34,692 bases of DNA. Source: a virus. Under the pieces are notes generated by a model that worked only from the letters and a program-made list of their open reading frames with translations, searched no databases and was not told where the DNA came from. A program made the translations under genes and the position numbers. The stretch covers positions 1-34,692 of the IMG/VR virus record IMGVR_UViG_3300011114_000680, one strand, 5' to 3'. Below are positions 7,639 to 31,440 of the stretch, piece after piece (position 1 is the stretch's first letter; each line of letters begins with the position of its first letter).

Positions 7639-7641
7639 GGG

Positions 7642-14726: not shown

Positions 14727-17515
14727 TCAGCTCCAGATTGCGGAGCTGCGCGGCCCCGGTTTACTGTTGTGGATTTGTTTGCTTTTTTACGGAGCCGGTC
14801 AGATACAGCTCTTGAAAAGTCTTGTCCGACTTCTCCGCTTCGATTTGATTGCGCAGCATTTGCACCGCTGGGTGATCCTTGCCCAAGCGCTGTTCCCGTT
14901 CCTTCAACATTTCTTCCAAGGTAAGCATCGTAGTCACTCCTAAAGAAGACCTTAGTGTCGTACCAGACCAACCTGGCATCTGACACATTACCTTCGCCAA
15001 TTATATCTGTAACGACCTGATCGAAAAGCCTTTGTTTATCAGCCATGATTTTTGCCCGGTTGGCGGCGTTGTAGCCGTCGTCAAATTCCGGGATGTACTG
15101 AAAACGCAGGCCATTTAAACCTGCCGTGTCAGGCGCTCCAGGTCTGGCCTGCACATTGATGCGGTCGCTGAACCGCATGTCTGTGACATAGGTAAACCCA
15201 TCAACCCCATACTGGCGTAGCTTCTCGGTCACTTTTGCCATTTGGTCTGGGGTGATCTTCTGCTTGAAGTAAATTTCCACGCCTGGTCGCGCATTCGGGC
15301 TGGCTCCATTCCTGACAACTTTGGAGATGAAGACGGCATCCTGATCGTATTGTTTGCCTTGCTCAATCAAACGACGCTCAAGCCCAGCAGGATTGAAATT
15401 TTGACGCGCAACAAATTCAGCGTTGAGCGCACGCTCGGTTTGAGCCATGAACGAACCGTAGGTATTGGCCAGGTTGTAGGTCATAACACTTGGATCATTG
15501 CGAACCACATCATCAAATTCAGCGGCCAACTCTGCTTGCGCATAATTGCTCATTGGTTTGTCTGGTCTTTCACCTGACACACCCAATGTGTAGCGCTCAA
15601 CATCGGCTTGCTTGCTGGCCAACATGCTTTGGCTCTGAGCTTTATTAGAGTCATACGCCACTTTTGCATCTTGTACGCGCTGCGCATATTGCTCATCAGT
15701 TTCAGTCTTGCGGCGTGTAGGCAGTTTAAATCCCTGGTTAATGTCTCGGCGCAAGTCTTTAACTGCTTGCGGATCAGCAGCGCCAGCAAGCGACATCTCG
15801 TAGTCAAGAGATCCACCTTCACCTGCCTTACTTGTCCAACCGTTATTTGTCCATTTTTCTTTTTCAATGAACCAGGCAACGGCTTGCAGATCATCAGGCC
15901 CAAGGTCACCAATTTGTGGTGCCACGTTCTTGATGATGCCGCTGTTGTTGATCTCTGCTGCAGCTTCTCTGAATACGTCTTGGCCAAAACCAAACTCGCT
16001 GCCTACCTTTGGGTCATACAAAGTTGACCCGACCAAGTGTTTGCCAGCTACACCTTTTTCAGCTGGTGGAGGGATGCGCGGCAAATCAGCCAGGCGACGC
16101 AACATGCGAGCAGCCCACACATCAATGGTTGCTTCGTTGGTCAATCCAATCAAGTTGCCGGTGAAGTTAGGTGTCTTTGGTGAATCGCCTGCTTTGACTG
16201 CGCGGAACATATCAAGCAAAGCACCCATAGACGCGGGACTGTTGGCATTGAACAGTTGACCACCGGCTTTGGTAATCAATGGGAATTCACCTTTTTTAAA
16301 CAGCTCGGTGAGAGTCTTTGCATCCATTGGTTCGCCCGACTTAAGCCTGCTTTGATAAGCAGATAGCTCAGTGTCGTATTCACCACGGGAGAACCGCCGC
16401 AATATTTCGACGGCATTGTCAAAGTTTTGCTCAACTCCAGTTTGTGCGGATGTCGTGCCAAGCACATCAGCAAATACATCACCGATACCGCCAAACTCTG
16501 CGCGCAAACGATCACGCATTGACCTGTACCAGCTTGCTTGATTCAGTATGTCAATGGCTGCTTGGTCGCCAGCTTTGGCGCGATCAACAACAGACTGAAC
16601 TTCTTCAAACATGCGAGCTGACAACGTAGATTGCCAAACGTCTTTTGGCACACCATCAGGCGGGGTGTGGAAGTCATAAGGAATTTTTCCAACCTCAACT
16701 TCTGCAATTGGCGCGCCTTCTTTTGACTCTTTGAATGTAATCTTGTTGGCTTCAATCGGTGTCCAACCTTCTGCCTCTGGAAAGTTTGCGTGCAAATCTT
16801 CTACTGCTGTTGTGGCTGTTTGTTTTAGGGCGGGCTTTCTGCCTGCAGCTTTGGTCACAACACTGCGTTCTGTGCGCGTAAGGGTAGGAACAATTGACGG
16901 CCCTTCTGGCACGATGTTCATTTGCAAAGGCGTGCCCAGCTTTGACATGCTTTTACTGACCATCTTTCCAGCAGTTGGGGCAAGAGTTTTTGCTCCAGCT
17001 TTGATACTAGCAACGCCAACATCAATTGCACCAGGCAGCGGAGCGAGCTCACCAAAGGTTTGCCCATACCCTGCGCTGCGTGAGCGCATAGCTGCATCAG
17101 GCGCGCCAGGTGGTACCACGGGTGGAAGTATCTCTCCCATGCGCTCAGTGGTTGGTAATAGCGTGCCTTCGTTCAATCCTTTGGCAAATGCATCCAATCG
17201 ACTTTGATCTTCTGGCCGGTTGAAGATTGACTTCAACCCGTTGTAGAGCATTTGCAGATCACCAGGCAGGCCAAGCGTTTGAGCCACTGCACCACGCACA
17301 ACACCGGCACCTGTATCCAACAAAGCCATTGGGACATCAGTCATTGGTCTGTCGGAATTGCGGCCAGCAGCATTGCCACCCATAGCCAGCATCACATCAC
17401 CAGGCTGCCTGCCTGGCATGGTTTGCTCTGGCATCGCAGGCTCAATCGGCGCGTCAGGAAATTGGACAGCGGTCAGGGCCGACAGGTATTTGTTTTCAAT
17501 TGAACTGTAGGCCAT
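14723..17515 (-). CDS. Large presumed internal virion protein, 930 aa
   Basis: ATG 17515 follows AAGGG; a TTG two codons earlier is also possible. The N-terminal 130 residues are Pro/Met/Gly-rich, with an amphipathic helix at about 60-110. The middle (about 310-720) has motifs such as GGIGDVFADVLGTTSAQTGV, NLIGLTNEATIDVWAARML and DDLQAVAWFIEKEKWTNNGW, which I recognise as recurring in uncharacterised virion proteins of marine podoviruses, with no known activity. The C-terminus is low complexity. The DNA from about 15000 to 16900 is more AT-rich than the flanking genes. A 55-aa gene lies nested near its 3' end. Confidence 0.7.
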   Translation of the reverse strand: MAYSSIENKYLSALTAVQFPDAPIEPAMPEQTMPGRQPGDVMLAMGGNAAGRNSDRPMTDVPMALLDTGAGVVRGAVAQTLGLPGDLQMLYNGLKSIFNRPEDQSRLDAFAKGLNEGTLLPTTERMGEILPPVVPPGAPDAAMRSRSAGYGQTFGELAPLPGAIDVGVASIKAGAKTLAPTAGKMVSKSMSKLGTPLQMNIVPEGPSIVPTLTRTERSVVTKAAGRKPALKQTATTAVEDLHANFPEAEGWTPIEANKITFKESKEGAPIAEVEVGKIPYDFHTPPDGVPKDVWQSTLSARMFEEVQSVVDRAKAGDQAAIDILNQASWYRSMRDRLRAEFGGIGDVFADVLGTTSAQTGVEQNFDNAVEILRRFSRGEYDTELSAYQSRLKSGEPMDAKTLTELFKKGEFPLITKAGGQLFNANSPASMGALLDMFRAVKAGDSPKTPNFTGNLIGLTNEATIDVWAARMLRRLADLPRIPPPAEKGVAGKHLVGSTLYDPKVGSEFGFGQDVFREAAAEINNSGIIKNVAPQIGDLGPDDLQAVAWFIEKEKWTNNGWTSKAGEGGSLDYEMSLAGAADPQAVKDLRRDINQGFKLPTRRKTETDEQYAQRVQDAKVAYDSNKAQSQSMLASKQADVERYTLGVSGERPDKPMSNYAQAELAAEFDDVVRNDPSVMTYNLANTYGSFMAQTERALNAEFVARQNFNPAGLERRLIEQGKQYDQDAVFISKVVRNGASPNARPGVEIYFKQKITPDQMAKVTEKLRQYGVDGFTYVTDMRFSDRINVQARPGAPDTAGLNGLRFQYIPEFDDGYNAANRAKIMADKQRLFDQVVTDIIGEGNVSDARLVWYDTKVFFRSDYDAYLGRNVEGTGTALGQGSPSGANAAQSNRSGEVGQDFSRAVSDRLRKKANKSTTVNRGRAAPQSGAE
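14761..14928 (-). CDS. Nested small coiled-coil protein, 55 aa
   Basis: Lies in another frame of the same strand within the last 210 bp of the 930-aa gene. ATG 14928 has AGGAG 8 bases upstream, a better ribosome site than many genes here. The protein is charged and helical (MLTLEEMLKEREQRLGKDHP, then AVQMLRNQIEAEKSDKTFQE), with a protein-like composition, while the overlapping frame is low complexity there. Function unknown; perhaps a virion-assembly helper made with the ejection proteins. Confidence 0.55.
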   Translation of the reverse strand: MLTLEEMLKEREQRLGKDHPAVQMLRNQIEAEKSDKTFQELYLTGSVKKQTNPQQ

Positions 17516-17517
17516 GC

Positions 17518-19311
17518 TCAATACCCTTCCGCTCTTGTAAGCAGCTTCTCGATCTCAGCGATTTGCCGCAGTTTGTTGGGATCGTTGCCAGCTTTTTGCT
17601 TGAGCGCAGGCAGGGTCTCGCGTGTCACTGGGCCAGTGATCCAATCGCGGCCAGGCTTGTAGCTACCGTCTGGTCGCTTGGCAAACTCATCGAGTTGGCG
17701 CTGTGCAGCCTTGGCATCTTCAGTGCTGCGACGCTTGGTCAGGCCGTCTTCCAACTGGGTCAGGATTTGACGCGGTGTCAGGCTCTTACCTTCGCCAGCA
17801 GCTTGAGCTTGAATTTGAAATGCTTGTTTTTGCAATTCAGAACGGCGCTTGAATTCTTCACCCTTGGGGTCGAGGACAACCACACTGCCAGGAATCACAG
17901 GGATGCCAGCCAGCCTGGAGATGCCGCGATCAAGCTCTGAGCTGTCGCGCCGGTCTTCGCTTTGCAAGATCTTGAGCGCAGCCACCGCATCTTTGCCGGT
18001 CAAGCCTTTGCCAACCAAACCCCAGATCTGCTTGGGATCGGTGATGGTGTTGTTGTAGATGCCAGACAGCAGATTGAACTGCACAACTGGATTGCTCTCA
18101 CCCTGTGGTGACAGCAAGTCTTTGAGTGTGCCAATGGGCACCGAGCCCTCTGGCAGAGCGGTGAGCTGGTCAATGAGCTGCTTCTTCTTGGGGCTGCCAT
18201 CCGGCAGCGGGAAGATCTGCTCCAGCAAATTGATGGCCTGAGCTTCGCCTTGCTTCTTGGCTTCTTCAGCCTTGGCATCTTTGATTGACTTGCGGTTGTT
18301 GACGGCCACCATGAAGTTGGCAGTCACCTTGGCCACAGCATCAAAGTCATTGACGATCATGGATTGCAGCACCGGACTCATGCTGCCCAGGTCGCCGCTT
18401 CTGATCTTTTGCAAGGTGCGCTCTGGATCCATCATGTTCTCGTCTTTGATCAGCGCCTTGGTCACCGCATTGATCTTGGCATTGCGCAGCGCTGTCTCAA
18501 ACTTGGTGCTGTATTCGGTCTGCAGCGCCTTGTCACCCAGCAGCAGGGATTGTGTCAGCACGTTCTTGCGGAACACATCAGCGAGCTCGTCAATAGATCG
18601 TTGCTGGCCATTGGCATCAGTCCAGCTGCCTTGCGAAATAGTTGCCTCAAGCAGCCTGGTGCTGTTGTCAAAGTCAGAGTCAAACTTGGCAATGCGTTGG
18701 GCTTTGGCGCGGTCGAGCTCGGACTTGTATGCAGCATTGAGCACGGTGTTGCCGTGCGTGGCCATGGTGGCTCTGAACTTGATTGCAGCTTCTGGGTCAA
18801 TGTTGGCCAGCGACTTGGCATAGCCTTCAGACATGACTTTGATCTTGTCGCTTACCTGGGTAGAGGTTGCATTTCCAGCTTCAACATCAGTCAACAGTTT
18901 GGTCAACTCGTTGCGGCCTTCGATCTCAAAGTGGCCAGCAAGCTCCAGGCTGCGAGCCTTGGCCACAGCCTTAGCAAAATATCCAGCTGAAGCGACAGTT
19001 GGTATTTGCGCCTGTTCACCATTTGGCCCCATGAACCAACCTTCTGGGTTGACTCCATCTTTTGCCAATTGCACTTGCTGTGATGTCAGCGGGTTTTGAG
19101 CAGCAAACTGCAAACCTTCTTGCTGGCGCATTTCCGCAGCAGTTTGAAAAAGATTTGCGCTCATGCGATCAAGAATCTGAGCCAGTTGATTGTTGGTCTG
19201 TGCAGCAGCTCGCGGGCCAATGAAGTCAACCGGCTGCTGTTGCACTTGCACCATTGGCGCATTGCCAACACCGCGCACTTGAATTTGTCCTGATTCGATT
19301 CTTGTTGCCAT
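17518..19311 (-). CDS. T7 gp15-like internal virion protein, 597 aa
   Basis: It follows the gp14-like gene as gp15 does in T7 and is similarly long and helical. It starts MATRIESGQIQVRGVGNAPM, then a Gln-rich N-terminus, and contains GWFMGPNGEQAQIPTVASAG and a helical repeat-like body (ANIDPEAAIKFRATMATHGN). No membrane helix. In T7 such proteins form part of the channel through which DNA crosses the envelope. The assignment rests mostly on order, size and composition. Confidence 0.72.
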   Translation of the reverse strand: MATRIESGQIQVRGVGNAPMVQVQQQPVDFIGPRAAAQTNNQLAQILDRMSANLFQTAAEMRQQEGLQFAAQNPLTSQQVQLAKDGVNPEGWFMGPNGEQAQIPTVASAGYFAKAVAKARSLELAGHFEIEGRNELTKLLTDVEAGNATSTQVSDKIKVMSEGYAKSLANIDPEAAIKFRATMATHGNTVLNAAYKSELDRAKAQRIAKFDSDFDNSTRLLEATISQGSWTDANGQQRSIDELADVFRKNVLTQSLLLGDKALQTEYSTKFETALRNAKINAVTKALIKDENMMDPERTLQKIRSGDLGSMSPVLQSMIVNDFDAVAKVTANFMVAVNNRKSIKDAKAEEAKKQGEAQAINLLEQIFPLPDGSPKKKQLIDQLTALPEGSVPIGTLKDLLSPQGESNPVVQFNLLSGIYNNTITDPKQIWGLVGKGLTGKDAVAALKILQSEDRRDSSELDRGISRLAGIPVIPGSVVVLDPKGEEFKRRSELQKQAFQIQAQAAGEGKSLTPRQILTQLEDGLTKRRSTEDAKAAQRQLDEFAKRPDGSYKPGRDWITGPVTRETLPALKQKAGNDPNKLRQIAEIEKLLTRAEGY

Positions 19312-19314
19312 GAC

Positions 19315-20007
19315 TTATGCGCCCGAAATGGTTTTGTATGCTTGAATGGCACCCTGGCTGAGTGTTGCCCCAGCAAGAATGCCACCAGATCTGCGAGCAG
19401 CAGAGGCGGCAAAATTGAGTTGGCCAGCCTGGCTTCTCGCGCTGTACAGGTTGAGCATGTTTTGCATGTCAGTAGACTGCAGCATGGCGGTGGCATCCTC
19501 AAAGCCCATGACCCTTGCGGTCAGTGCATTGAGGTCTGCAATGCCTACATCGCGCATGGTGGCTGCCACGTTCTCGGTCTGCACAGCCTGCACAGATCCC
19601 TCACCCAGCACGACACCGCTTGCAGCAGCTCTGGCACGCATAGCCGCATTGGTAGCACGCATGTTCTTAAGCAGGCTATTGCCAGCAATGGTGTAGTTCT
19701 GTGCCTCAATCTCAGCCTTCTTGACGGTGCGGCCAGTTTGGATCAAGGCATACTGCTCAGACATGTCAGCACGCACTTGGGCCACAGCCAAGGTGTCACG
19801 CGCCTGCAGCAGGTAGCTGGTCTGTTGGTTGATTGCAGCAGCCTTTTGCGCTTCTGCTGCACCGTAAGCACCAATTAAGCCTGCAACACCCATGGCTTGC
19901 CCGGCGCTCACGTTTGGTATCCAGCCTGGTCTCATAGATGGATCAAACCCGCTTGTTGCGTAAGGGATCAATCCGGCTGAAAGTGAATTTGAAGTATCAA
20001 CGGCCAT
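19315..20007 (-). CDS. T7 gp14-like internal virion protein, 230 aa
   Basis: ATG 20007 is preceded by AGGA and follows the tail tube B stop; the frame opens earlier but inside that gene. A hydrophobic Gly/Ala segment (about 32-50, AGQAMGVAGLIGAYGAAEA) is followed by long Ala-rich helices (TYLL-type, RTVKKAEIEAQNYTIAGNSL, RATNAAMRARAAASGVVLGE). This resembles gp14-type proteins that insert in the outer membrane during ejection. T7 gp14 is 196 aa. Confidence 0.8.
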   Translation of the reverse strand: MAVDTSNSLSAGLIPYATSGFDPSMRPGWIPNVSAGQAMGVAGLIGAYGAAEAQKAAAINQQTSYLLQARDTLAVAQVRADMSEQYALIQTGRTVKKAEIEAQNYTIAGNSLLKNMRATNAAMRARAAASGVVLGEGSVQAVQTENVAATMRDVGIADLNALTARVMGFEDATAMLQSTDMQNMLNLYSARSQAGQLNFAASAARRSGGILAGATLSQGAIQAYKTISGA

Positions 20008-20008
20008 G

Positions 20009-21997
20009 TCATGTTCCTGAGAAAACAGCCACGCGGTAATCCAAACCAAGCAGATTCATCTTGAGCGGCAGGTCTTGCGACACCTCAATGGACTGCTCGC
20101 GGCTGTAACCAAGCACACCATTGACGCGCTTGATGCCAGTGAATTCGGGCACAGGATCATCCAACAGCGGATTATCAAAGAGCCGGAATGCGACCGGCTG
20201 TTGGTTGATGATCAAATTCTGGGTCTCGTTGACCACGGCGCTGATCTCCACAATGCGCTTCTTGAACGACACTCGGCTGCCGGTCTGCAGCTTGACCTCT
20301 GCTGGCATGGTCTTGACGTAGACGGTGATGGGTAAGCCCACCTCGTAGCTGGTGACTGATTCGCGGTCAAAGGTAACGGCACCGCCAGCGCTCACAGTCT
20401 CATTGCCCTGGGGCGAGCCGTCGCAGATCACGTTCAGCGACTTGCCAATGTGCGGCAAGCCAGACCCAACGCCACCAGCAGATCCACCGACAAACGCACA
20501 GTCGGTGAAATACTCATAGCCAAAGCGCTCAATGAAGTACCTGTCAACGCTGTTGAAGGTGCGCTTGGTCACAACGTAGATGGTGTTGACATCAATGCCA
20601 ACGTCGATGAACTGGCCATCTGTCGTGAACTCTGACGGGCTTGTCACCTGTTGGCTGCGCATGATGCTGAACACAGCCATGCTGCCGTCATCGGTGTTTG
20701 TCATCAGCAGCAGGTCAGCTTCTTCGGTGCTCGATGCCCGGCGCAAAGCAATGCGCTGCGGCCCCTTGAGCAAGTGGCCAGACAGCAGCGAAATGCGCTG
20801 GGTGATGTATGTGAGCTGGGTGTCGGAGAACACAAACTCATTGAGCGACTTACCCTGGCGCTGAATGTAAATTGAGCCGGACTCCACCGATTGCACGCGG
20901 GTGCCAGGCTTGATGCCATTGCGGCTCACGTTCTTGAATGTGAAGGTCAGCGGTGTCACTGGGTCGGTGCCCTGCTGCGGCACATAAAACTCACCGCCAG
21001 TGGTGAAGACTTGGAAGTCACGCGAACTAATGATGTCGGTGATCACGTTCAGATCGTTGGTGTCCAGCGTCGCCTCGACCGCATCGTCGTCCAACGATTC
21101 GCTTGGCACAAAGTCGTAGAAGAGGCCGATCTTGGAGCCCCACACGGTCGATGGCCGTGACTTGCTACCGCCAAAGTACAAGCGGCCTTCATGGAACGTG
21201 ACGCTGCGCGGCCAACCCTTGGTGCTTGACCAAACGCTTTCATATCCAGATTCAATTTCCCAGTTGCCTTGCGCAATGTTGCTGGTGTCAAAGAACGGGT
21301 ATTCAGTAATAGCTTTGACCACCGTACCGCTGACGTACTCCACAATGCGAGCTCGTCCCTGTGGTGAAGCGTTGATGTACTGATTCACACTACCGGAAGT
21401 GAAGATGCTGTTTTGAGCAGTCAGCGTCACATTGCCAGACACCGCACTAGGTGTTAGATGACCAACTGCCGGGGTTGTCACCGTTAGCGTGAATGCGTAT
21501 TTTGGGATAGAGTCAAACGTGATGGTGGTTGCCGTCCAGGCCGTGTCGCTGGTGCGAGTAATGCGCACCGGCTGCAGGTCAGGATGCACCACGATCAGGG
21601 TGTCAGCAGACTGCGTCCAACACATGTCATCAACAATGCTGCTGCCAATGGTGGTGGTCAGGTAGTTGTTGCCCGACGCATTGATGTTGGTCTGCACCAC
21701 ACCGTTCTTGATGACGTACATGCGGTTGTGGGTGAAGCACAGCATGTAGCTGTCATCAACCGAGAACTGGAAGGGCACCAAGCGCACGCCATTGCCTGCG
21801 CTGGGCGTAGAGCTGTTTGGCAGCTCCAGGATGTGTTTGGTGCCAGGCCTGCGGCGCAGACCACCCTGGGGCTGGATCAGCACGTTGGTGGCCTTGGCCA
21901 AGGCGTTGTTGTACGCCTGCAGATCCACACGCGCACGCAACAGCGGGTCGAGCTCGCCCGTCGCAAAGTTGGTGGTGAACTCTACAAAGCGCGGCAT
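20009..21997 (-). CDS. Tail tubular protein B (T7 gp12-like nozzle), 662 aa
   Basis: The frame opens 45 codons earlier inside the preceding gene, but ATG 21997 overlaps that gene's TGA as TGATG and has GAGGAA before it. The start MPRFVEFTTNFATGELDPLL and GGLRRRPGTKHILEL are typical of gp12-like tail nozzles. Later segments WSSTKGWPRSVTFHEGRLYF, then FGGSKSRPSTVWGSK are also diagnostic. It forms the distal tail tube and carries the fibres. Confidence 0.93.
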   Translation of the reverse strand: MPRFVEFTTNFATGELDPLLRARVDLQAYNNALAKATNVLIQPQGGLRRRPGTKHILELPNSSTPSAGNGVRLVPFQFSVDDSYMLCFTHNRMYVIKNGVVQTNINASGNNYLTTTIGSSIVDDMCWTQSADTLIVVHPDLQPVRITRTSDTAWTATTITFDSIPKYAFTLTVTTPAVGHLTPSAVSGNVTLTAQNSIFTSGSVNQYINASPQGRARIVEYVSGTVVKAITEYPFFDTSNIAQGNWEIESGYESVWSSTKGWPRSVTFHEGRLYFGGSKSRPSTVWGSKIGLFYDFVPSESLDDDAVEATLDTNDLNVITDIISSRDFQVFTTGGEFYVPQQGTDPVTPLTFTFKNVSRNGIKPGTRVQSVESGSIYIQRQGKSLNEFVFSDTQLTYITQRISLLSGHLLKGPQRIALRRASSTEEADLLLMTNTDDGSMAVFSIMRSQQVTSPSEFTTDGQFIDVGIDVNTIYVVTKRTFNSVDRYFIERFGYEYFTDCAFVGGSAGGVGSGLPHIGKSLNVICDGSPQGNETVSAGGAVTFDRESVTSYEVGLPITVYVKTMPAEVKLQTGSRVSFKKRIVEISAVVNETQNLIINQQPVAFRLFDNPLLDDPVPEFTGIKRVNGVLGYSREQSIEVSQDLPLKMNLLGLDYRVAVFSGT

Positions 21998-22611
21998 CAG
22001 TTCCTCACCGCGATCAGAGAATAATCTTCGATGATGCGCACAGGGTTGTTCTGACCATCGATCTGGGCTGCGGTGCGGAAGTAGCCACCACGACCGTTCT
22101 CGGAGATGTCGCCAGTGGCCACGCGCTGCCACTTGTTGGCCTTGTCCTGCTGTTCGGTGATGGTCTCGGCAATGTGCCAGGCCACCATGTACTTGAGCAG
22201 CTGCACAAAGTATTGCGGCATGGCGTACTCAGGCACGCTGTACTGGTAGTCAATGTAGACGTTGGTCAGGTTGGTGAGCAGGCTGTCACCCTGGATCTCC
22301 CAATCCTTTTGCACTGGGCTGCCAGGGTTGGGGCTGTTGTACACGGCGCGGGGGTTGGCCAGCTTGTCACCAGGCAGCTGGTATGCGTATGTCCAAACGG
22401 TGGTTGGCGCTGTGATGAGCTGCGCCAGCTGCACCTTCTTCATGCTGAAGCTCCACGGGTACATGACCAGGGTGGAGTCGCGGATATCTGGGTAGAGTCG
22501 GTCGCAAACGCTGGACTCGTCGGTGCCGTCATTGAAAGACGAAATAGCCTTGGCTCCAATCAAGAGCAAGGCATCAGAGCAGATCGATACACCAGTGTCA
22601 CCAGCAGCCAT
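21997..22611 (-). CDS. Tail tubular protein A (T7 gp11-like adaptor), 204 aa
   Basis: It joins the portal to the tail tube. Typical features: an N-terminal SICSDALLLIGAKAISSFND, then CDRLYPDIRDSTLVMYPWSF and LPGDKLANPRAVYN. Length is near T7 gp11 (196 aa). AGAGG lies 5 bases before the ATG. It is directly after the capsid unit terminator, so it must be served by read-through or by another promoter not seen. Confidence 0.93.
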   Translation of the reverse strand: MAAGDTGVSICSDALLLIGAKAISSFNDGTDESSVCDRLYPDIRDSTLVMYPWSFSMKKVQLAQLITAPTTVWTYAYQLPGDKLANPRAVYNSPNPGSPVQKDWEIQGDSLLTNLTNVYIDYQYSVPEYAMPQYFVQLLKYMVAWHIAETITEQQDKANKWQRVATGDISENGRGGYFRTAAQIDGQNNPVRIIEDYSLIAVRN

Positions 22612-22622
22612 ATGAACCTCTT

Positions 22623-22666
22623 AATGTAAGAAGAGCCAACCTCCGAGAATCCCCAGAGGCTGGCTC
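22623..22666 (-). terminator. Intrinsic terminator after the capsid unit
   Basis: On the minus strand GAGCCAGCCTC (22666-22656) pairs with GAGGTTGGCTC (22643-22633), 11 pairs including one G-U, over a 12-base loop, followed by TTCTTACATT. The U-run is imperfect, so leakage to the tail genes is expected, as at the T7 terminator after gene 10. On the plus strand the same position is an A-C mismatch, which supports action on leftward transcripts. Confidence 0.7.
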
Positions 22667-22684
22667 CATGTGAGTCAACTCCGA

Positions 22685-22972
22685 TTAGTCGGTGTTGGTC
22701 ACAGTTGCGGCAGTCGCGTCAGACGTATCAACCACGCCCGCAGCTGAGATGCTCATCACAACGTGCCAGCCTGCAGTGGACACGTTGCCACTGGAAGTTG
22801 TCACACGCCAGATCAGATCGCCAACCTTGAGCAAGGAAGAGATGCTGTTGAAGTAGCCGCTGGTGTCAACCGTAGCGGCAGCGTCGGTGGTGGTGTAAGT
22901 CCACATTTGCGGGGCATTGCCCGCTTTGGACTGAGCACCTGCGGCATTTAAGCCTGCTGCATCAAAAGCCAT
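22685..22972 (-). CDS. Small virion (head decoration-like) protein, 95 aa
   Basis: An excellent AGGAGG lies 8 bases before ATG 22972. Ala/Thr/Ser/Gly-rich with beta character (MWTYTTTDAAATVDTSGYFN, VGDLIWRVTTSSGNVS, GWHVVMSISAAGVVDTSDAT). It sits directly after the capsid gene in the same transcription unit, which suggests high expression and a capsid-associated role such as decoration. The assignment is inferred from position and composition. Confidence 0.7.
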   Translation of the reverse strand: MAFDAAGLNAAGAQSKAGNAPQMWTYTTTDAAATVDTSGYFNSISSLLKVGDLIWRVTTSSGNVSTAGWHVVMSISAAGVVDTSDATAATVTNTD

Positions 22973-22988
22973 TTTCAGACCCTCCTAA

Positions 22989-23843
22989 TTAGGCTGCAGC
23001 CGCAGTGTCGCGGGCAGTGATTTTGACGATACCCTCGGAGTCGATGCTAATTGCACCAGCCGAGAACACAGCGTTGACAAGCCAGCTGGTTTTCTCAGGG
23101 ATGTAATTGATCTCGGTGCGAGGAGCGATGCCTTCGGCGTAGCCAATGGCGCTGGTGTGGAATGCGTACAAGGTACGGTCGCTAGAACCGTCAATGGGCA
23201 AACCACCTTCGGTGCGATCACCCAGCACATGGAACTGGAAGCCCATGAACGTGGAGATTTCACCCTGTACCAAAGCCTTAACGGTGTTGAAGTCAGAGCT
23301 GGTGACAGAAGTCTGTTCCAACATTGCAGCCAAAGAGTTGGCGTGAATGATGATGTGACGACCGTCGCTGGGCACGTTCTTCGCGTTGAGGATCTTGGCG
23401 GCTTCGCGCAACTTGCTGATGTTCATGTTGGTGTTTGCGCCACCAATGCTGTTGGCCACAGTGCCAGTGCTGGTTGCTGCAGCCAGCGCGTCCAAGATCA
23501 ACTGATCTTGACGACGACCGATTGCGTTGCCAACAACTTGCACAAGCTCAGAACGCTCATCAAAGTTGACTTTGGCCTGGCTGAAGATGTCACTGTATTC
23601 AGCGGCATTCCAATCAGACAAGGTGCAGGTGACAGTGCTGAAACCCACATTGAGTGGAGTCACATCAGTCTGCGGGACACGGGCGGTGGCAACGCCACGA
23701 CCCACTTTGGGAAATTTAACAGTGGAGCCTTCGACACCACGACGCTGACGCACAGCACCAACCAGTTCTGCTTTGCCCTGGTAGGCTTGTTTGACCTCAG
23801 CATCGAATAGCGTCACAAAGGCGTTGGAAAGAGAAACGCTCAT
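22989..23843 (-). CDS. Major capsid protein, 284 aa
   Basis: Follows the scaffold gene as gp10 follows gp9 in T7. Starts MSVSLSNAFVTLFDAEVKQA; contains RRGVEGSTVKFPKVGRGVA, a segment FSQAKVNFDERSELVQVVGN and RRQDQLILDALAAA, matching the small HK97-fold capsid proteins of aquatic podoviruses. The C-terminus (SWLVNAVFSAGAISIDSEGI) fits the A-domain/P-domain strand pattern. A GAGGT ribosome site, its own promoter and flanking terminators indicate very high expression. Confidence 0.9.
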   Translation of the reverse strand: MSVSLSNAFVTLFDAEVKQAYQGKAELVGAVRQRRGVEGSTVKFPKVGRGVATARVPQTDVTPLNVGFSTVTCTLSDWNAAEYSDIFSQAKVNFDERSELVQVVGNAIGRRQDQLILDALAAATSTGTVANSIGGANTNMNISKLREAAKILNAKNVPSDGRHIIIHANSLAAMLEQTSVTSSDFNTVKALVQGEISTFMGFQFHVLGDRTEGGLPIDGSSDRTLYAFHTSAIGYAEGIAPRTEINYIPEKTSWLVNAVFSAGAISIDSEGIVKITARDTAAAA

Positions 23844-23983
23844 TTGGATACCTCATTCGGTTGTTGATCAGGGTTTATCGCGTCGGTGAGCCGCTGGTGC
23901 GGGCCTGTGCTTGCTGGTATCGCCAGCCACTCGGTGGTGTCTCGCCACTGGTCAGGGTCGGTTGCCCGATAAGCCTTGGCGCG
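23844..23983 (-). other. Capsid gene leader
   Basis: About 130 bases between the predicted capsid transcript start (near 23977) and ATG 23843. It contains a GCTGG/CCAGC hairpin (23913-23927) and ends in GAGGT before the start. One frame is open through the whole leader and stops over the capsid start, but it has no start codon with a ribosome site. A structured leader stabilising the capsid mRNA is plausible. Confidence 0.4.
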
Positions 23984-24010
23984 ATTGTAGAAGAAATTTG
24001 ACGTTGTCAA
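23984..24010 (-). promoter_or_regulatory. Strong sigma70-like promoter for the capsid unit
   Basis: On the minus strand the perfect -35 hexamer TTGACA (24010-24005) is followed after a short 15-bp spacer by TACAAT (23989-23984). The -35 lies in an inverted repeat TTGAC-AAC-GTCAA. It stands between the scaffold terminator and the capsid gene, the place of the T7 phi10 promoter. Confidence 0.6.
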
Positions 24011-24032
24011 TAGGGGGTGTTGGTAAATGGAC

Positions 24033-24059
24033 AAAAAAAGACCCAGCCGAAGCTGGGTC
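24033..24059 (-). terminator. Intrinsic terminator after the scaffold gene
   Basis: A perfect 8-bp GC-rich stem GACCCAGC/GCTGGGTC around a 4-base loop (24040-24059), followed on the minus strand by seven Ts (24039-24033). This is the clearest terminator of the genome. It ends the long leftward transcript before the capsid promoter begins a new one. Confidence 0.9.
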
Positions 24060-24094
24060 AAATGGCAACTGCCTGTCGGCAGACCTTGGAGTAA

Positions 24095-24871
24095 TTATTT
24101 GATGGACGCTTGAAACATCCTTTCGACCTTCTGCCGATAAGCAGGGTCGGTCTTGTATTTGGGATCGGCCACCATGGCATAGAGCTCTTCCTTGCTGGGT
24201 GTGCCTTCTGCAGGCATAGACTCAATGGGCACCCTACCTTCGTAGGCTTCGCGCACCTTCATCAGCGCGGTGAGGCCGCGAGCGGTGCCACCCATGATTT
24301 TGAACTCTTCAAAATCGTCCTTTGACCAGACACCCTTGTTGACCAGGCCGCGAGCCCAATCCACCATGCCGTTGACGATTGCGCCAGCGTTGGGGCCCAG
24401 CTGCTTCATCTCAACCGCAGGGTCAACCATGTCACCTTGCATGATCTCTTTGGCTTGGGTCTGCAGGTTGTTGACCAGGTCATCAAAGGCAGCCTGAGAC
24501 AGCCCATTGTCCTTAGCCCAGCCCGACAGGGTGGTGGCAATAGGGTTGGTGTCAGCCTCTTCTCCAAAGGCCTTGAGGTCGTACTTGCCATCGGCTGGCG
24601 CTTTGTGCTTGCCCTGGCTGATTTGCTTACGCAGATCTGACCAGCTCTTGGCAATGCCTTCCAGGTCGGGCTCGTTGGAGTCCTTCTTCCAGAAGTTTTC
24701 TGGCCAAAAGTCTGGACGCTCAAGTGGATCGTCAGGCGCTGGCGCACCTGCGGGAGCGGTCTTGTGGTCGATTTCGACGGCTTGTGGGTTTTGCGGCTTG
24801 GTGTCGTCAGTCACTTGCACATTGTCAAGTAGGCCGGTTCCACCGGGCTCGACGGTTGCTGTGTCGGTCAT
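24095..24871 (-). CDS. Scaffolding (capsid assembly) protein, 258 aa
   Basis: T7 gp9-like by position between the portal region and the capsid. ATG 24871 follows AAGGAA and overlaps the Bbp19-like stop as ATGA. Acidic and Pro-rich at the N-terminus, with PLERPDFWPENFWKKDSNEP (about 49-68), a hallmark of this scaffold family, then DLRKQISQGKHKAPADGKYD and helices, and a basic C-terminal helix (DPAYRQKVERMFQASIK) expected to bind capsid subunits. Confidence 0.9.
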   Translation of the reverse strand: MTDTATVEPGGTGLLDNVQVTDDTKPQNPQAVEIDHKTAPAGAPAPDDPLERPDFWPENFWKKDSNEPDLEGIAKSWSDLRKQISQGKHKAPADGKYDLKAFGEEADTNPIATTLSGWAKDNGLSQAAFDDLVNNLQTQAKEIMQGDMVDPAVEMKQLGPNAGAIVNGMVDWARGLVNKGVWSKDDFEEFKIMGGTARGLTALMKVREAYEGRVPIESMPAEGTPSKEELYAMVADPKYKTDPAYRQKVERMFQASIK

Positions 24872-25131
24872 AGTTTCCTTGCTGTGTTGATCCGTACCTC
24901 GATGTCCCGCACCACCGTCCTTTGCCCTTCGGCAAAGAAGGCGTATGAGGGGTCTGTGCCCGGCACGGCGATGGGCACATTCACATACATGTCTTTGAGC
25001 CACTGAAGCAGCTTCTGGCCATCCTCAGAGCCAAACACCCGCAAGGTCAGACGCGCCAGATCCTCGCGCTGCTGGGCCACATCCCGGATGTCTTCGGTTT
25101 GGCCAATGGCATTGATCTCGTCCCAGCTCAT
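24868..25131 (-). CDS. Bbp19-like structural protein, 87 aa
   Basis: A small protein between portal and scaffold, overlapping both by ATGA. The segment LRVFGSEDGQKLLQWLKDMY (about 30-49) matches the core of the family named for Bbp19 of Bordetella phage BPP-1 (as I recall it), followed by FAEGQRTVVRDIEVRI. Its role in the particle is not established; position suggests head assembly. Confidence 0.8.
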   Translation of the reverse strand: MSWDEINAIGQTEDIRDVAQQREDLARLTLRVFGSEDGQKLLQWLKDMYVNVPIAVPGTDPSYAFFAEGQRTVVRDIEVRINTARKL

Positions 25132-26741
25132 GCCATGGCTCCCTGTGGCGCTGGCAGCGCAGGCATACCGGCACCGGCTTGTGCCTGCATGGCCATGGCT
25201 TGCGCGATGGCTTGCTGCTGCTGTTGGTTCTTCATCTCTTCCATGAGCACGGCACGCTCGGCTGCGGTGTTGCGCACAGAGGCAGGCACGCCCAGCTTGT
25301 CGGCCAGGTAGTCCACCAGCATGTCGGTCTTGATGGCCAACTGGCCATCAGTGCCCAGGCCCTGGCTGATCTGCAGGTACTGCATGATGGCGTTGACCTC
25401 TTCCATGTTCTGGGCCATGGCCAGCGGGGCCACAGGGGTAACTTTGACTTCCAGCCCGTTGACGCGCAGGGGCATGTCAATCAAGCCGCGCTCGTCCATC
25501 ACTTCCAAGATCTTGGCGGTGACCGGGATCATGGTCTCGTTGATCAAGCGGCCAAAGGCAGAGCCCAGGTTCTGGGCCAGCTCCTTCATGCGCTCCACGA
25601 TCTCGGTGGCAGACCTGGCGCTCATGTTGTCTGGCGGCAACGATTCGTCCAACAGGATGCGCTTGACGTTGCTGCGCAGGTCATTGATCACCAGCTGGCT
25701 GACGTTGAAGTCGCCAGAGCGGGGCAGGGGCAACAGGGCAGGGCCTTGCGAGCCACCATTGCGAGCCACGGGGATGATGGCACCAGGCACGATCTTGACT
25801 GTGTTGGGATTGAGCACCCCGTCGTCTGCAGCAGTGTAGACACCGGCCACGGCCAAGCTGGCGTTCTTGAGCAGCAGCTCGATGGTCTTGTTCAGCGTCT
25901 TGATGTCGGGCAGGGCGGTCATCAGGGGGCCACGGCCATAGATCTCACCGGCCACTTTCATGTAACGGCTGATCACCCATGGGCTCATCTTGCGACGGCG
26001 GTAGACCAATTCCTCTTTGGATACCTTGTCAATAACGTGGTAGCAGTAGTCGCCACGCTTGTGGTCGTAGATGGTGGCTTCCAGCAACTCAATGTCGTCA
26101 GTTGGCTTGTTGTCAATGCGACGCTGCAATTCGTCTGGAATGTTGGCATCTGGCCATTGACGTTGGATGCTTTCGGCCTTCATGCGCATGCGACGGTAGA
26201 CGTTGTCCACCTGGCCGTTCGCTCCTTCCTCATAGCTCACCAGGAAAAGCGGCACGGGAATGAAGTTGAGCGGCTGCACATCGTCGCCCGGCTGCACCAT
26301 CATGCAAGCAGTGCCCACAGCCAGGTCGAGCAAGAACTCACCCATGGCAATGTCAAAGTTGGACTGATTGAGCACGGTGAACATCTTGTCCTGGTAAACC
26401 TCCAGGATGGCTTGGGCCTGCTGCCTGCGGTCAGCTGGAATGTCTGAGCCAGCTTCCAGCTTTGCCCACTTGCGCTGCGGCGGGAACACAACCGATTGCA
26501 GCCGGTTGGCAAAGCGCTGGGTACTGTTGATCGCGGTCGAATCAAAGACGCGCTGCATCTTCTTGCTGCCGGTGGCACCCCCTTCCCACAACCCGTAGAG
26601 CTGGCGCTGGGGCAGGGCAAACTCGTAGGCATCCTGGTAGAGCTGCTGGAATTCGTCCTTCTTGCGCTGGGCGAGCTCCTGGCGTTTCAAGATCTGTTCT
26701 GGTGTGAGGCGCATGCCTCCGGATGTGTTGTTTGTTGCCAT
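25128..26741 (-). CDS. Portal (head-tail connector) protein, 537 aa
   Basis: T7 gp8-like dodecameric portal through which DNA is packaged. Typical features: KKDEFQQLYQDAYEFALPQR, DSTAINSTQRFANRLQSVVF, then PPQRKWAKLEAGSDIP; later YMKVAGEIYGRGPLMTALPD, IKTLNKTIELLLKNA, and SARSATEIVERMKELAQNLG. The C-terminus is Gln/Ala/Met-rich. Length equals T7 gp8 (536 aa). AAGGA lies 7 bases before the ATG. Confidence 0.96.
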   Translation of the reverse strand: MATNNTSGGMRLTPEQILKRQELAQRKKDEFQQLYQDAYEFALPQRQLYGLWEGGATGSKKMQRVFDSTAINSTQRFANRLQSVVFPPQRKWAKLEAGSDIPADRRQQAQAILEVYQDKMFTVLNQSNFDIAMGEFLLDLAVGTACMMVQPGDDVQPLNFIPVPLFLVSYEEGANGQVDNVYRRMRMKAESIQRQWPDANIPDELQRRIDNKPTDDIELLEATIYDHKRGDYCYHVIDKVSKEELVYRRRKMSPWVISRYMKVAGEIYGRGPLMTALPDIKTLNKTIELLLKNASLAVAGVYTAADDGVLNPNTVKIVPGAIIPVARNGGSQGPALLPLPRSGDFNVSQLVINDLRSNVKRILLDESLPPDNMSARSATEIVERMKELAQNLGSAFGRLINETMIPVTAKILEVMDERGLIDMPLRVNGLEVKVTPVAPLAMAQNMEEVNAIMQYLQISQGLGTDGQLAIKTDMLVDYLADKLGVPASVRNTAAERAVLMEEMKNQQQQQAIAQAMAMQAQAGAGMPALPAPQGAMA

Positions 26742-26744
26742 GGT

Positions 26745-27068
26745 TCAGTCCTTGTCCATCTTGTATTTGTCCAGCAGGTTCCTGCCCTTTGCGGCCAGCC
26801 TGGCTGCGGCACCAGCTGTGCGCGGCACCGGCTCACCCCAAGCATTGGCTGCAAGCGCCAGCCTGGTCGGGTCGCCGTCCTTGTCCACCAAAGGCCCACT
26901 TGGGTTGGTGTAGAAGCGGGTCAAGAATGAACCCTTGCGGCGAGCACGCTCACCCAGCGGGCTGGATTCTTTGACACCAGGCTGCAGGTTCTTGCTCTCA
27001 CCAGAGCGCTCAAACTTGCGCCGACCGGCTTCGGTCAAACCACCCTCTGGGTCTTTGTACTTGCTCAC
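26745..27068 (-). CDS. DUF6321-like conserved phage protein, 107 aa
   Basis: Starts at GTG 27068, overlapping the previous stop as GTGA. Basic, with KDPEGGLTEAGRRKFERSGE, NLQPGVKE and a C-terminal KGSFLTRFYTNPSGPLVDKD, then GDPTRLALAANAWGEPVPRT. This pattern is that of the DUF6321 family often placed next to portal genes in aquatic podoviruses. Function unknown; the family name is from memory. Confidence 0.8.
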   Translation of the reverse strand: MSKYKDPEGGLTEAGRRKFERSGESKNLQPGVKESSPLGERARRKGSFLTRFYTNPSGPLVDKDGDPTRLALAANAWGEPVPRTAGAAARLAAKGRNLLDKYKMDKD

Positions 27069-27220
27069 TTCTTTGCTGCTGCCATGTTGTCAACCAGGTT
27101 TGGATATGGTCGCCCAGCTTTTGCAGCACGACGCATAGCCATTCGCTTTTGTGACGATGACAGCTCCTTTGGTTTGCCCAGGTCTTTGGGCCTTGGTTTT
27201 TCCCAGACTTCTTTTTCCAT
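27065..27220 (-). CDS. Small basic conserved phage protein, 51 aa
   Basis: ATG 27220 follows GAGGA one base after the stop of the Cys-rich gene. Starts MEKEVWEKPRPKDLGKPKEL and ends AAKAGRPYPNLVDNMAAAKK. Proteins with the AGRPYPNLVDN ending recur between terminase and portal genes of marine podoviruses. Basic and probably DNA- or virion-associated, but not characterised. Confidence 0.75.
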   Translation of the reverse strand: MEKEVWEKPRPKDLGKPKELSSSQKRMAMRRAAKAGRPYPNLVDNMAAAKK

Positions 27221-27221
27221 G

Positions 27222-27674
27222 TCAGTCCTCTTCTGCTTCATCGGTGATCGGGCCACCCACCAGCCATGCGTCACAGGTGCGCGAGGCAGCACACTTGAAG
27301 TGCAGCAACTCGCAATAGCCAAGATCGGCAGACTCAATTACGTCTTCGTCGTAGCCAGCTTCCTGCTCTGGGCGCTTGGCCTCGATGCCAGCCTTGATGC
27401 AGTCCAGCATCTGCTTGGTCTTGATGAAGGCAGAGCAGTTGCCGCAGCGCATGCCCATAGCCTCGGCCACGGTGCAATTGAGCATGGTGGCTTTCTTGAG
27501 CCAGAACACCTCGTTGTTCTTGGTGTCATTGGGATTTGCTGGGCCATAGCCGTAGTGCTCAAACGCAAAATTGCGGGCCTTGAGGTTTTCATCCAGGTCG
27601 CGTGTAGCGATGGGGCAGGAATACTCTTCTTGCTCCAGCTCTGCGTCCATCAGCATGGCGCGTTTGGTTGCCAT
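27222..27674 (-). CDS. Cysteine-rich, HiPIP-like protein, 150 aa
   Basis: Starts at ATG 27674 (a GTG one codon earlier is possible) in a TGATG overlap. The cysteines are arranged as C77-x2-C80, C92, C121, C128 and C134 in MRCGNCSAF, MLDC, GYCELLHFKCAASRTCDAWL, near GGPI. Similar proteins in cyanophages and other aquatic phages have been compared with high-potential iron-sulphur proteins, which need four cysteines for one 4Fe-4S cluster. Whether metal is bound is unproven; zinc is the alternative. Confidence 0.8.
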   Translation of the reverse strand: MATKRAMLMDAELEQEEYSCPIATRDLDENLKARNFAFEHYGYGPANPNDTKNNEVFWLKKATMLNCTVAEAMGMRCGNCSAFIKTKQMLDCIKAGIEAKRPEQEAGYDEDVIESADLGYCELLHFKCAASRTCDAWLVGGPITDEAEED

Positions 27675-27835
27675 CACTTGCCCTTCTTGAGTTTGTCTGC
27701 CTCGCTCATGGCAATGGCAATGGCTTGCTGACGGCCGCCGACCTTGTCGCCGCTGGAGCTCTTGAGCTTTCCAGCCTTGTATTCGCGCATGACCTTATGG
27801 ACTTTTTCTTGCATCTTTTCTTTCATGTCTTTCAT
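27674..27835 (-). CDS. DUF6496-like small basic protein, 53 aa
   Basis: ATG 27835 follows AGGAG with 7 bases and overlaps the previous stop as ATGA; its own stop overlaps the next ATG. The sequence KVMREYKAGKLKSSSGDKVG, then GRQQAIAIAMSEADKLKKGK is the pattern of the DUF6496 family of small basic proteins found in phages and bacteria. Possibly nucleic-acid binding. It is short but well supported. Confidence 0.8.
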   Translation of the reverse strand: MKDMKEKMQEKVHKVMREYKAGKLKSSSGDKVGGRQQAIAIAMSEADKLKKGK

Positions 27836-28437
27836 TGCTGTGCTCCTGCTAAAAGAGGTCTTGTTGCTTTGCGAGACACGGCACTCAACCTGGCCGAGCG
27901 GCGCTCTCCAATCTCGCGGCCTAGTTCGCTTTGGAGCCCAACCCTCTTGGCTTCAAACTGTGAGGAATCAAATTCTTCAATGGTTGGAGCGTTTGGTGTC
28001 TCCGGCGGGGTAGGTGCCTTTTCGGTGAACTTGGGAATTTCCTTGGGGACGTAGTAAGTGAACGGCTCGCGCTTGGTCTCGTATCCAGCCAAACCAAACA
28101 AGCCCCACCTTGGGGTCTTGGTTTCTTTGATGCCGGTCGCTTCAGTCACTGGATTGGCTTGGATGTCGGCGAGTAGCTTGTTGTAGTCATCGAGCTTTTT
28201 CATGTACGCGGCTTTTTGAGACTCGTAAGTCGGCAGCAGTGACTCTTTGTAGGTCGCCATCTGCTCTTCAAACGGTTTCATCTTTTCGGCCACGCCAGCC
28301 TGGTAGCCGGTAAATGCGGTTTCGTATTCACCCGTGATGCCTGCCACGTTTTTCTTGTACTGCTCGGCCAGGCGCTGGATGTCGGATGTGGTGCGCCGTG
28401 CGATCTGGCGCTGTTTGAATTGAGGTAGTGTGGCCAT
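27832..28437 (-). CDS. Coiled-coil protein, possible virion component, 201 aa
   Basis: Starts in a TAATG overlap with the upstream gene. N-terminal RRTTSDIQRLAEQYKKNVAG and a long coil (about 20-95) are followed by a Pro/Thr/Glu-rich linker (KAPTPPETPNAPTIEE) and a basic helical end (GREIGERRSARLSAVSRKAT). Comparable proteins sit between terminase and portal in aquatic podoviruses; a virion or packaging accessory role is inferred only from position. Confidence 0.65.
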   Translation of the reverse strand: MATLPQFKQRQIARRTTSDIQRLAEQYKKNVAGITGEYETAFTGYQAGVAEKMKPFEEQMATYKESLLPTYESQKAAYMKKLDDYNKLLADIQANPVTEATGIKETKTPRWGLFGLAGYETKREPFTYYVPKEIPKFTEKAPTPPETPNAPTIEEFDSSQFEAKRVGLQSELGREIGERRSARLSAVSRKATRPLLAGAQQ

Positions 28438-28886
28438 TATTGCAACCTCATCCCGCCACCACTCAAATCAACCGGCACGCCAAGCTCTGCGTCCATGCGT
28501 TCACCTGAGAGCAGGGATCTGCGGCCACCACGGGTGCGAGCTCTGAGTGCAGATGCTTCTTGTGATGCAGCTTTGCGGCGCTCTTCGTCTGCAGCGGCTT
28601 GCACCTCTTTGGCTTTCTTCTCCATCTCCAACTTATTGGTCTGGTAATTGAGCTGTGACTGCTCAAACTGCTGGCGAGCGGTCTGCGCCTGCTGTTCAAG
28701 CGACGCGCCTTGCTTGGCGTACTCAGCGGTCTGCTTGGCCAGCTCAGTGCGCATGGCAGCCTGGTCAGCGGCCTGCTGCGCCAGCAATGTGCGCTGGTCG
28801 TTCTCGGCCTGCTGCCTGGATTTACGCGCCTGATCGGCGCTGACAGCGGTGCTCAAAACAATGGCACCCGTGATCCAATAGGTCAT
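28437..28886 (-). CDS. Coiled-coil protein with N-terminal hydrophobic segment, 149 aa
   Basis: An AAGGAGG lies at ideal distance before ATG 28886, which overlaps the cupin stop. The N-terminal WITGAIVLSTAVSADQ may be a short membrane anchor. About 20-115 is a long Gln/Ala/Glu coil, then a basic turn (RARTRGGRRSLLSGER) and a Gly-rich end. It may partner the 201-aa coiled-coil protein. Function unknown. Confidence 0.65.
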   Translation of the reverse strand: MTYWITGAIVLSTAVSADQARKSRQQAENDQRTLLAQQAADQAAMRTELAKQTAEYAKQGASLEQQAQTARQQFEQSQLNYQTNKLEMEKKAKEVQAAADEERRKAASQEASALRARTRGGRRSLLSGERMDAELGVPVDLSGGGMRLQ

Positions 28887-29359
28887 TTGATTACCTCCTT
28901 GTGTTCAAAAACTTCCATGCCCAGCTCGGCGTATTCCAGCGCGGTGAACATGTTTTCCAGGGTCTCGATGTCGGTCTCGTTGGTCGGATTGGGGTGAATC
29001 GTTGTCCAGATCGCATCCTCATGCGTATGCACAACCCGCTTGGTGCCAGCCTCTGAGATGAATGACGCAGGGGCCTTGTGATGCTCCAGGCCAAACTCGG
29101 TGTAGCAGGTGATGCTGCCCTGGCTGATGATGTTGAAGTGGCGATGGCGGTGGATCTTGCCAACCACCACGGTGCCAGCAGGCAAGTGGATCTCGCGGGC
29201 ATAGACACCAGGCGCAAGCCAATGCCGCACAGGTGGCGATTCGTCCATACGCTGGCCATCAGGCAGCGCCTGGCAAGCCCTTTGAATGGCCATGATCTTC
29301 TGCCGCGCTATCGGCGCAGGCAGATTCGCTTGCGGCATTTCAATGATGGCTGTAGTCAT
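28883..29359 (-). CDS. Cupin-fold metal-binding protein, 158 aa
   Basis: A beta-barrel pattern with two histidine clusters: GKIHRHRHFNIISQG (His70, 72, 74) and VVHTHEDAIW (His111, 113, Glu114), as in the two cupin motifs that bind one metal. The substrate is unknown; a sensor or small-molecule enzyme are both possible. ATG 29359 has no ribosome site, and the predicted promoter would make the transcript start within a few bases of it, so it may be leaderless. Later ATG codons are alternatives. Confidence 0.75.
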   Translation of the reverse strand: MTTAIIEMPQANLPAPIARQKIMAIQRACQALPDGQRMDESPPVRHWLAPGVYAREIHLPAGTVVVGKIHRHRHFNIISQGSITCYTEFGLEHHKAPASFISEAGTKRVVHTHEDAIWTTIHPNPTNETDIETLENMFTALEYAELGMEVFEHKEVIK

Positions 29360-29361
29360 AG

Positions 29362-29395
29362 CAATAGATTCTATTGAGTGTTGTACACAATGCAA
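29362..29395 (-). promoter_or_regulatory. Promoter with overlapping palindromes before the cupin gene
   Basis: On the minus strand TTGCAT (29395-29390) is separated by 16 bp from TAGAAT (29373-29368). A 15-bp palindrome CAATAGATTCTATTG (29362-29376, one off-centre base) covers the -10, and TTGTACACAA (29381-29390) lies between the boxes. Both are good operator candidates, so the gene is probably repressed or switched separately from the long operon. Confidence 0.5.
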
Positions 29396-29401
29396 TAGCC
29401 T

Positions 29402-29420
29402 TGATATCTTTGCGATATCA
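29402..29420. promoter_or_regulatory. Second GATATC-N5-GATATC dyad
   Basis: TGATATC and GATATCA form an inverted repeat with a 5-bp spacer, directly after the terminase stop and 7 bp upstream of the cupin -35. The same GATATC spacing occurs at 570-586. No T-run follows, so it is more likely a protein site than a terminator. Confidence 0.4.
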
Positions 29421-29423
29421 CAT

Positions 29424-30977: not shown

Positions 30978-30994
30978 CGTGTTGTTCCAGTTGT

Positions 30995-31258: not shown

Positions 31259-31440
31259 GCGCCTCTCCCTGTTTGATCCATCATGACTGTTCGTGCCAAG
31301 GCTTCACAGGTTTGACATGGCTGTGCCAAGGCTTCTTTGATGGCGGTGATGGCCTCCTCTGTTGGTTGGTGCAATTTTCCATGCACATCCCAGTATTCCA
31401 ACGCCTCAAGCGCAATCTTCAATGCCTCATCTTTTGTCAT
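31255..31440 (-). CDS. Small accessory protein, 61 aa
   Basis: Starts in an ATGA overlap with the small terminase stop. The sequence MTKDEALKIALEALEYWDVH, then EEAITAIKEALAQP matches a widespread type of small phage accessory protein of unknown function. Helical and acidic. A CQTC pair follows. Confidence 0.75.
   Translation of the reverse strand: MTKDEALKIALEALEYWDVHGKLHQPTEEAITAIKEALAQPCQTCEALARTVMMDQTGRGA

Follow-up and report, generated by a model that had tools for sequence, protein, structure and literature searches.

A candidate structured leader RNA on the major capsid gene of a podovirus lineage

Genes and signals of the capsid unit

The analysed stretch of DNA, hereafter the window, is a virus record of 34,692 bases whose source is a podovirus. 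Its genes for the portal protein (PF12236), the scaffold (PF05396), the capsid (PF19821), and tail proteins follow a T7-like order. Also present are a gene resembling those of serine recombinases, RecE/RecT-like genes, and an O-like replication gene. Among isolates, the Methylophilales phage MEP301 has the most similar capsid (74% identity). None of the 30 window ORFs searched against PHROGs matched a phage RNA polymerase family, and the available part of the MEP301 description reports neither an RNA nor a DNA polymerase (PMC8024684). The serine-recombinase/invertase-like gene and the RecE/RecT-like genes occupy positions 440–1297 and 2585–4688 on the plus strand and possibly represent a lysogeny or recombination module. 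The features of the capsid region, in the order of transcription, are:

24033–24059, minus strand: predicted intrinsic terminator at the end of the upstream (scaffold) transcript (from sequence, likeness to P22-pbi, and relatives)
23984–24010, minus strand: host-type promoter, with −35 TTGACA at 24010–24005, a 15-nt spacer, and −10 TACAAT at 23989–23984
23872–23979, minus strand: core of the predicted structured leader RNA, model R1, 106 positions (from the covariance model and covariation)
23955–23975, minus strand: P1, a type A module with a 4-nt loop CUUA on the 5' strand and a single C on the 3' strand
23934–23948, minus strand: P2 hairpin (five covarying pairs)
23913–23927, minus strand: P3 hairpin, whose pentaloop is CGAUA here and CGNAA in most relatives; a conserved CAAGC follows
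23885–23905, minus strand: P4, a type B module with a single C on the 5' strand and a 4-nt loop CUCA on the 3' strand
22989–23843, minus strand: major capsid protein gene, 284 aa, PF19821 (from the family match and LME-1 chain 9eg4_A)
22685–22972, minus strand: gene of a 95-aa protein, probable capsid decoration protein (from the fold match 9eg4_H; phrog_18004)
22632–22667, minus strand: 16-bp stem and a poor U-run, acting as a weak terminator or protecting the 3' end (predicted from its fold and relatives)

The capsid protein matched the capsid chain 9eg4_A of LME-1 with an E-value of 1e-37. The 95-aa protein belongs by its PHROGs match to phrog_18004, whose function is not annotated. Its AlphaFold model (pLDDT 88.7, 29 aligned sequences) resembled chain 9eg4_H of the LME-1 capsid cryo-EM structure (Z 10.9, rmsd 1.8, 77 aligned residues, 27% identity), whereas Foldseek listed no PDB match below an E-value of 0.15. 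From its place in the icosahedral capsid entry and from the entry title, we infer a decoration or cement role for chain H. The modeled 95-aa protein is thus probably a capsid decoration protein, and the unit probably comprises the major capsid and the decoration protein. An RNA-binding fold of the ASCH/YTH-like type was considered for the 95-aa protein and rejected (Foldseek E ≥ 0.15; VIA Z of about 4–6 vs. 10.9 for the LME-1 chain). Below the LME-1 chain, nearly all fold matches were beta barrels of the ASCH/YTH/EVE/RsmE type with Z of 4–6, which may reflect only a common arrangement.

The initial annotation had described the capsid gene as an isolated transcription unit between two terminators and had proposed that the elements be compared in related phages. 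In this comparison the layout of terminator, promoter, and leader recurred, as did the 16-bp hairpin. The strong upstream terminator, which reads GACCCAGC-TTCG-GCTGGGTC-T7 from 24059 to 24033, held up as the best of 20 terminator-like sites in positions 16000–34692; since 21.3 such sites are expected from shuffled sequences, the weaker ones are attributed to chance. A 32-nt segment around this terminator shares 90.6% identity with P22-type phages, and P22-pbi carries an annotated terminator there; by sequence, the terminators of the window and of the P22-like phages are likely shared or convergent. Among the relatives, a terminator was located within 140 nt 5' of the leader RNA in 47 of 58 loci, with 0.02 per shuffled sequence.

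The TTGACA-N15-TACAAT promoter is present as proposed and is the sole site in the window that matches at least 11 of 12 consensus positions (both strands, spacers of 15–19 nt; 0.37 sites expected). Its spacer of 15 nt is short, and the site was therefore unlisted in a first scan that allowed spacers of 16–18 nt. Transcription is predicted to start with the A at 23977, which opens the sequence AAGG and coincides with the 5' boundary of the conserved leader. The best sigma70 match ended 4–6 nt 5' of the leader model in 39 of 56 distinct regions of relatives, and across 56 distinct regions the −10 matches peaked at a single fixed offset, with a mean of 3.14 of 6 positions vs. 1.88 overall. A −10 pattern lay near 85 of 100 aligned loci; in 74 of the 85, its end was 4–5 nt 5' of where the model begins. 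The −35 element of the relatives is looser and reads, as judged by eye, TTGACA or TTGCAN.

The hairpin behind the 95-aa gene, which had been called leaky-looking, lies in a 76-nt stretch with a folding energy of −32 kcal/mol (z −4.5). Its 16-bp stem is followed by the tail CUUCUUACAUU, which is a poor U-run, so that the description is a fair one. All 64 distinct folded intergenic stretches 3' of the 95-aa gene carry a stable hairpin, as judged by eye without a shuffle control; a true U-run follows it in L089, L092, and L095 and is absent from the clade of the window.

No gap between the genes from 22611 to 7642 exceeds 33 nt, and the 3' hairpin and a ribosome site occupy the 73-nt interval between the capsid unit and the tail genes. 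As this leaves the tail genes without room for a promoter of their own, they are presumably expressed by read-through out of the capsid unit, as far as the gene arrangement indicates. In the gene list used, the 844 nt from 6797 to 7642, before the tail-fibre gene at 7642, contain no assigned late gene. The claim of an isolated unit thus stands with regard to its own promoter and the two conserved terminator-like elements, but needs correction on the downstream side, where the tail genes need read-through; the unit appears half insulated and open downstream. Conservation of the elements supports the proposal that a host-type promoter drives the capsid and 95-aa genes, no phage RNA polymerase family was hit among the 30 ORFs, and a capsid and decoration unit of this kind can be regarded as quite probable. 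The initial annotation does not mention the leader, although no element of the unit is better conserved or more unusual.

Structure and spread of the leader RNA

The leader RNA lies within the 140 nt between the promoter and the capsid ATG. In a plain MAFFT alignment of 38 sequences (A1, which omits L004, L056, L071, L091, and L095 of 43 listed), 14 of the 22 pairs in the four hairpins changed on both sides, with 101 such cells as compared to 28 in shuffles and 2 to 20 when the partners were slid by 1–3 columns; the structure was derived from the same sequences and is therefore favoured over its slid versions. A second alignment (A2) was fitted to the model, contains 100 chosen matches (98 distinct), and leans towards the structure; here 21 of 25 pairs showed 480 two-sided cells vs. 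151 in shuffles and 33–70 in slid versions. A third alignment, A3, omits L054 and L094. Folded alone, the leader was no more stable than shuffled sequences (z +0.48), so the case for the RNA rests on the covariation, from which the existence of a structured leader RNA is concluded with high confidence. Rfam contained no family that matched the window at its gathering score or any of five relatives at E ≤ 1, and a lax search around the unit returned only sub-gathering sRNA matches, all of them over the terminator. Literature searches listed no report of this leader, and within the scope of these searches and of Rfam it is uncatalogued.

Model R1 matched the window at full length. Of 80 relatives, 77 likewise gave full-length matches, one is cut by a contig end, and two lack upstream sequence. 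Scores reached 87 bits in MEP301, 105 bits in a Rhodoferax MAG contig, 33.5 bits in a Hyphomicrobiales MAG contig, and 21.7 bits in a Methylophaga MAG contig; the other 12 of the 17 sources searched gave no match. In addition, a gene-blind scan of IMG/VR with the P3-hairpin pattern yielded at least 120 stretches. R1 was applied to 79 of these and matched 78 times: 71 matches precede a capsid ORF, six lie at contig ends (in two of these the first residues resemble those of a capsid protein), and the last is a chance match within an ORF. Two scanned loci without an R1 match look like chance occurrences in coding sequence. R1 occurs once in the whole window record and once in the MEP301 record, and a search of 299 genomes from the family to which the Rhodoferax MAG belongs found it only in the phage contig of that MAG and in one chance match within an ORF. 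The RNA is thus a capsid leader.

Other locations were considered and dismissed. A candidate chromosomal copy in the bacterial genome G273 lies inside an ORF that by eye resembles a dTDP-glucose dehydratase gene and is thus due to chance; further leader copies in the window amounted to isolated weak module matches besides 23885–23905; and carriage on plasmids was rejected because the plasmid search returned no capsid match. A second, degraded-looking leader with a terminator was seen on the minus strand at positions 5–100 of L099/L060, at the opposite end of the contig from the first copy and 4 nt from the contig end, and is perhaps an assembly chimera.

P1 and P4 share one asymmetric 4 × 1 internal loop, in which GG, four bases, and C on one strand face G, a single C, and C on the other. 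The arrangement is mirrored, with the four bases on the 5' strand in P1 (type A) and on the 3' strand in P4 (type B). In alignment A2 the single C is kept in both modules in 100 of 100 sequences, and in 95 of 100 the first and last letters of both loops are C and A. Distant relatives have ANAC or ANAA as the loop, and their outer stems are longer, with compensating bases, and comprise 6–10 bp in L091, L240, L302, and L338. A first rule that requires an A module followed by a B module was satisfied in 27 of 80 leader clusters (0.6 in dinucleotide shuffles) and in none of 76 upstream controls. A second rule recovered 38 of the 80 clusters, compared to 1.1 in shuffles, 0 and 1 with decoy loop classes, and 0, 0, and 1 with other single bases. 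This rule was frozen beforehand and then run on the relatives of a new capsid query, where it detected the pair in 18 of 21 previously unseen leader clusters (0.40 in shuffles; decoys 0 and 0). In set 1, which includes the discovery clusters, the native rule held in 57 of 112 clusters (0.9 in shuffles) and failed in 55, the SI2 relatives among them. By eye, the leaders of the SI2 relatives look related but altered; the SI2-type leaders (L083, L376–L420; for example GCAGACCCGCGAGGAACGGCACCCGG) are strongly conserved among themselves, fail the module rule, and possibly constitute a third variant. In the relatives on Methylophaga contigs (L219, L228, L240), at least four A and B modules overlap in alternation, and one outer stem has 10 bp.

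A more remote form of the pair was encountered among the relatives of L097, whose capsid protein is 30% identical to that of the window. The frozen native rule held in just 2 of 15 clusters of this set. The architecture is the same, and in each of the two modules GUAG faces a single U. A GNAG/U rule, made post hoc after reading the L097 relatives, matched 7 of 14 clusters in the L097 set, as compared to 0 in shuffles. None of the 112 clusters of the first set satisfied it, and rules with mixed loops had no match in either set. The two modules therefore change together. In five L097-type loci (L541, L553, L566, L568, and L579) both modules fall within a small upstream ORF, which is similar in sequence among the loci, and span about −165 to −45 from the capsid start. 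The distance from the end of the B module to the capsid start is 44–50 nt in these five loci and 38–50 nt over the seven GUAG-type loci, and copies within an ORF at a fixed distance from the capsid gene indicate that the RNA is tied to this gene rather than to the promoter. Coding sequence and RNA structure overlap in the five loci, where compensating stem changes and GNRA loops were observed.

The pair also occurs in isolated phages. In CKB-S2 it was detected by the frozen rule, and none of 3000 shuffles equaled it. A looser rule, which was made post hoc and permits one outer mismatch, detected it in 3 of 13 isolates, namely the pelagiphages Greip, HTVC100P, and Lederberg, of which Greip and HTVC100P are near copies of each other in the leader stretch; CKB-S2 and MEP301 fail this looser rule but are recovered by the frozen rule and by R1. 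The leader stretch of Baldr contains type B modules only, and PG9A-2, Hodr, and SI2 have at most one B-like match each. In the leader stretches of the Vibrio phages 1.254, 1.179, and ZCVPP1 and of the pelagiphage HTVC028P the module was not found.

Possible roles of the leader

The fixed loop letters, the mirrored pair, the concerted change of both modules, and the lock to the capsid start fit an RNA whose two modules are recognised as a pair by one factor acting on the capsid mRNA. We tentatively favour a reading in which the leader is a cis-acting operator, bound by a putative factor that sets the output of the capsid mRNA. According to this proposal, the promoter would supply the capsid transcript, and a dedicated factor, encoded by phage or host, would read both modules as a pair and act through translation or mRNA stability, both the factor and its action being what we infer from the pattern of conservation. 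The synthesis of the shell protein would thereby be kept in step with assembly, and the 3' hairpin would end or protect most of the transcript and leave the tail genes to be fed by read-through. A switch that controls access to the Shine-Dalgarno site was rejected: folds, whether constrained or not, hide the site, but shuffles of synonymous codons do so equally (0.25 vs. 0.25; n = 45 of 82 sequences). A bolder form of the operator proposal, which we consider speculative and somewhat doubtful, is a device common to phages that infect OM43 bacteria, SAR11, Vibrio, and freshwater bacteria. Here a single factor, which may be a virion protein, would read the two mirrored modules together. Capsid synthesis would then be coupled to assembly by feedback on translation or mRNA stability, and the loop letters would coevolve with the binder in dialects.

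The start of the RNA at the predicted transcription start in the clade of the window recalls putL of HK022, which lies just downstream of PL in the available part of the description (PMC9378689), and could point to put-like antitermination by RNA only. The leader would then bind the transcribing polymerase and allow transcripts to pass the 3' hairpin into the tail genes, which indeed leave no space for a promoter. However, among the matches listed in the gene-blind scan the leader stands before capsid genes only, in the five remote loci it sits inside an upstream ORF and keeps its distance to the capsid start, the 3' hairpin of the window is weak and may need no antitermination, and 7.5 kb of HK022 (a sequence without put annotation) contained one weak module pair. 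Antitermination is thus an unlikely role. The position of P1 at the predicted 5' end and the strong hairpin that closes the unit would suit an mRNA stabiliser, in which a structure at the 5' terminus would prevent decay from that side and the 3' hairpin would guard the other end. A plain stabiliser does not need fixed letters in two mirrored loops that change in concert, and it leaves the copies within an upstream ORF unexplained, which makes this role likewise unlikely.

A riboswitch-like sensor with twin ligand sites would fit a compact folded RNA with two identical internal loops, but is very improbable in view of the absent Rfam family, a pairing of the ribosome site no higher than in synonymous shuffles, the absence of a recognisable switch platform, and the single unvarying gene context, the capsid. 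That there is no functional RNA and the likeness reflects ordinary common descent of promoter-proximal DNA agrees with the standalone fold equal to shuffles, but is hardly credible given compensatory changes far above the shuffled and slid controls and the holdout result of 18 of 21 clusters vs. 0.40.

Significance and comparison with known systems

The leader would represent an uncatalogued class of structured RNA on the major capsid gene of a large podovirus lineage, traceable to about 30% capsid identity and including isolated phages of abundant marine bacteria. The way in which such phages, where no polymerase gene was found, adjust the amount of capsid protein would become directly testable, and the paired module in two letter dialects would offer a ready mutational assay and a route to the binder. 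A family-wide leader points to a common control of the amount of shell protein among related phages, and the family-wide device, if true, would amount to feedback on translation or mRNA stability for the shell of a tailed phage.

Late control in phage T7 employs the promoter phi10 and the terminator Tphi around gene 10. As a comparison of layouts, the likeness to T7 drawn in the initial annotation is apt, since in both cases a strong promoter serves the capsid unit alone at its start and a terminator-like element that appears leaky lies behind it (here as judged by sequence and conservation). The window differs by its host-type promoter and by the lack of a phage RNA polymerase family among the 30 ORFs. 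We know of no counterpart of the structured capsid leader in T7. Structural RNAs near the start of a structural-protein gene are found in the translational operators of RNA-phage coat proteins and in ribosomal-protein leaders, and the present leader resembles these in its place and in being suited to feedback; it differs in that the phage is a tailed DNA phage, the module pair lies about 30 nt or more 5' of the start, and the binder is putative.

A structured regulatory RNA in a marine methylophage is also described, in the part of the report available, for the myophage Melnitz, which carries a glutamine riboswitch on ssrA (PMC9004378); the leader of the window differs from it by the absence of an Rfam match and of a visible switch platform. 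The put RNAs of HK022, as far as the available part of the source describes them, comprise about 70 nt, form two stem-loops with bulges, and occur in early transcripts, with putL just downstream of PL (PMC9378689). The leader shares with them the nature of a phage stem-loop RNA with bulges directly 3' of a promoter, but differs from what is described there by its 106 positions, its four hairpins, its twin mirrored modules, and its capsid context.
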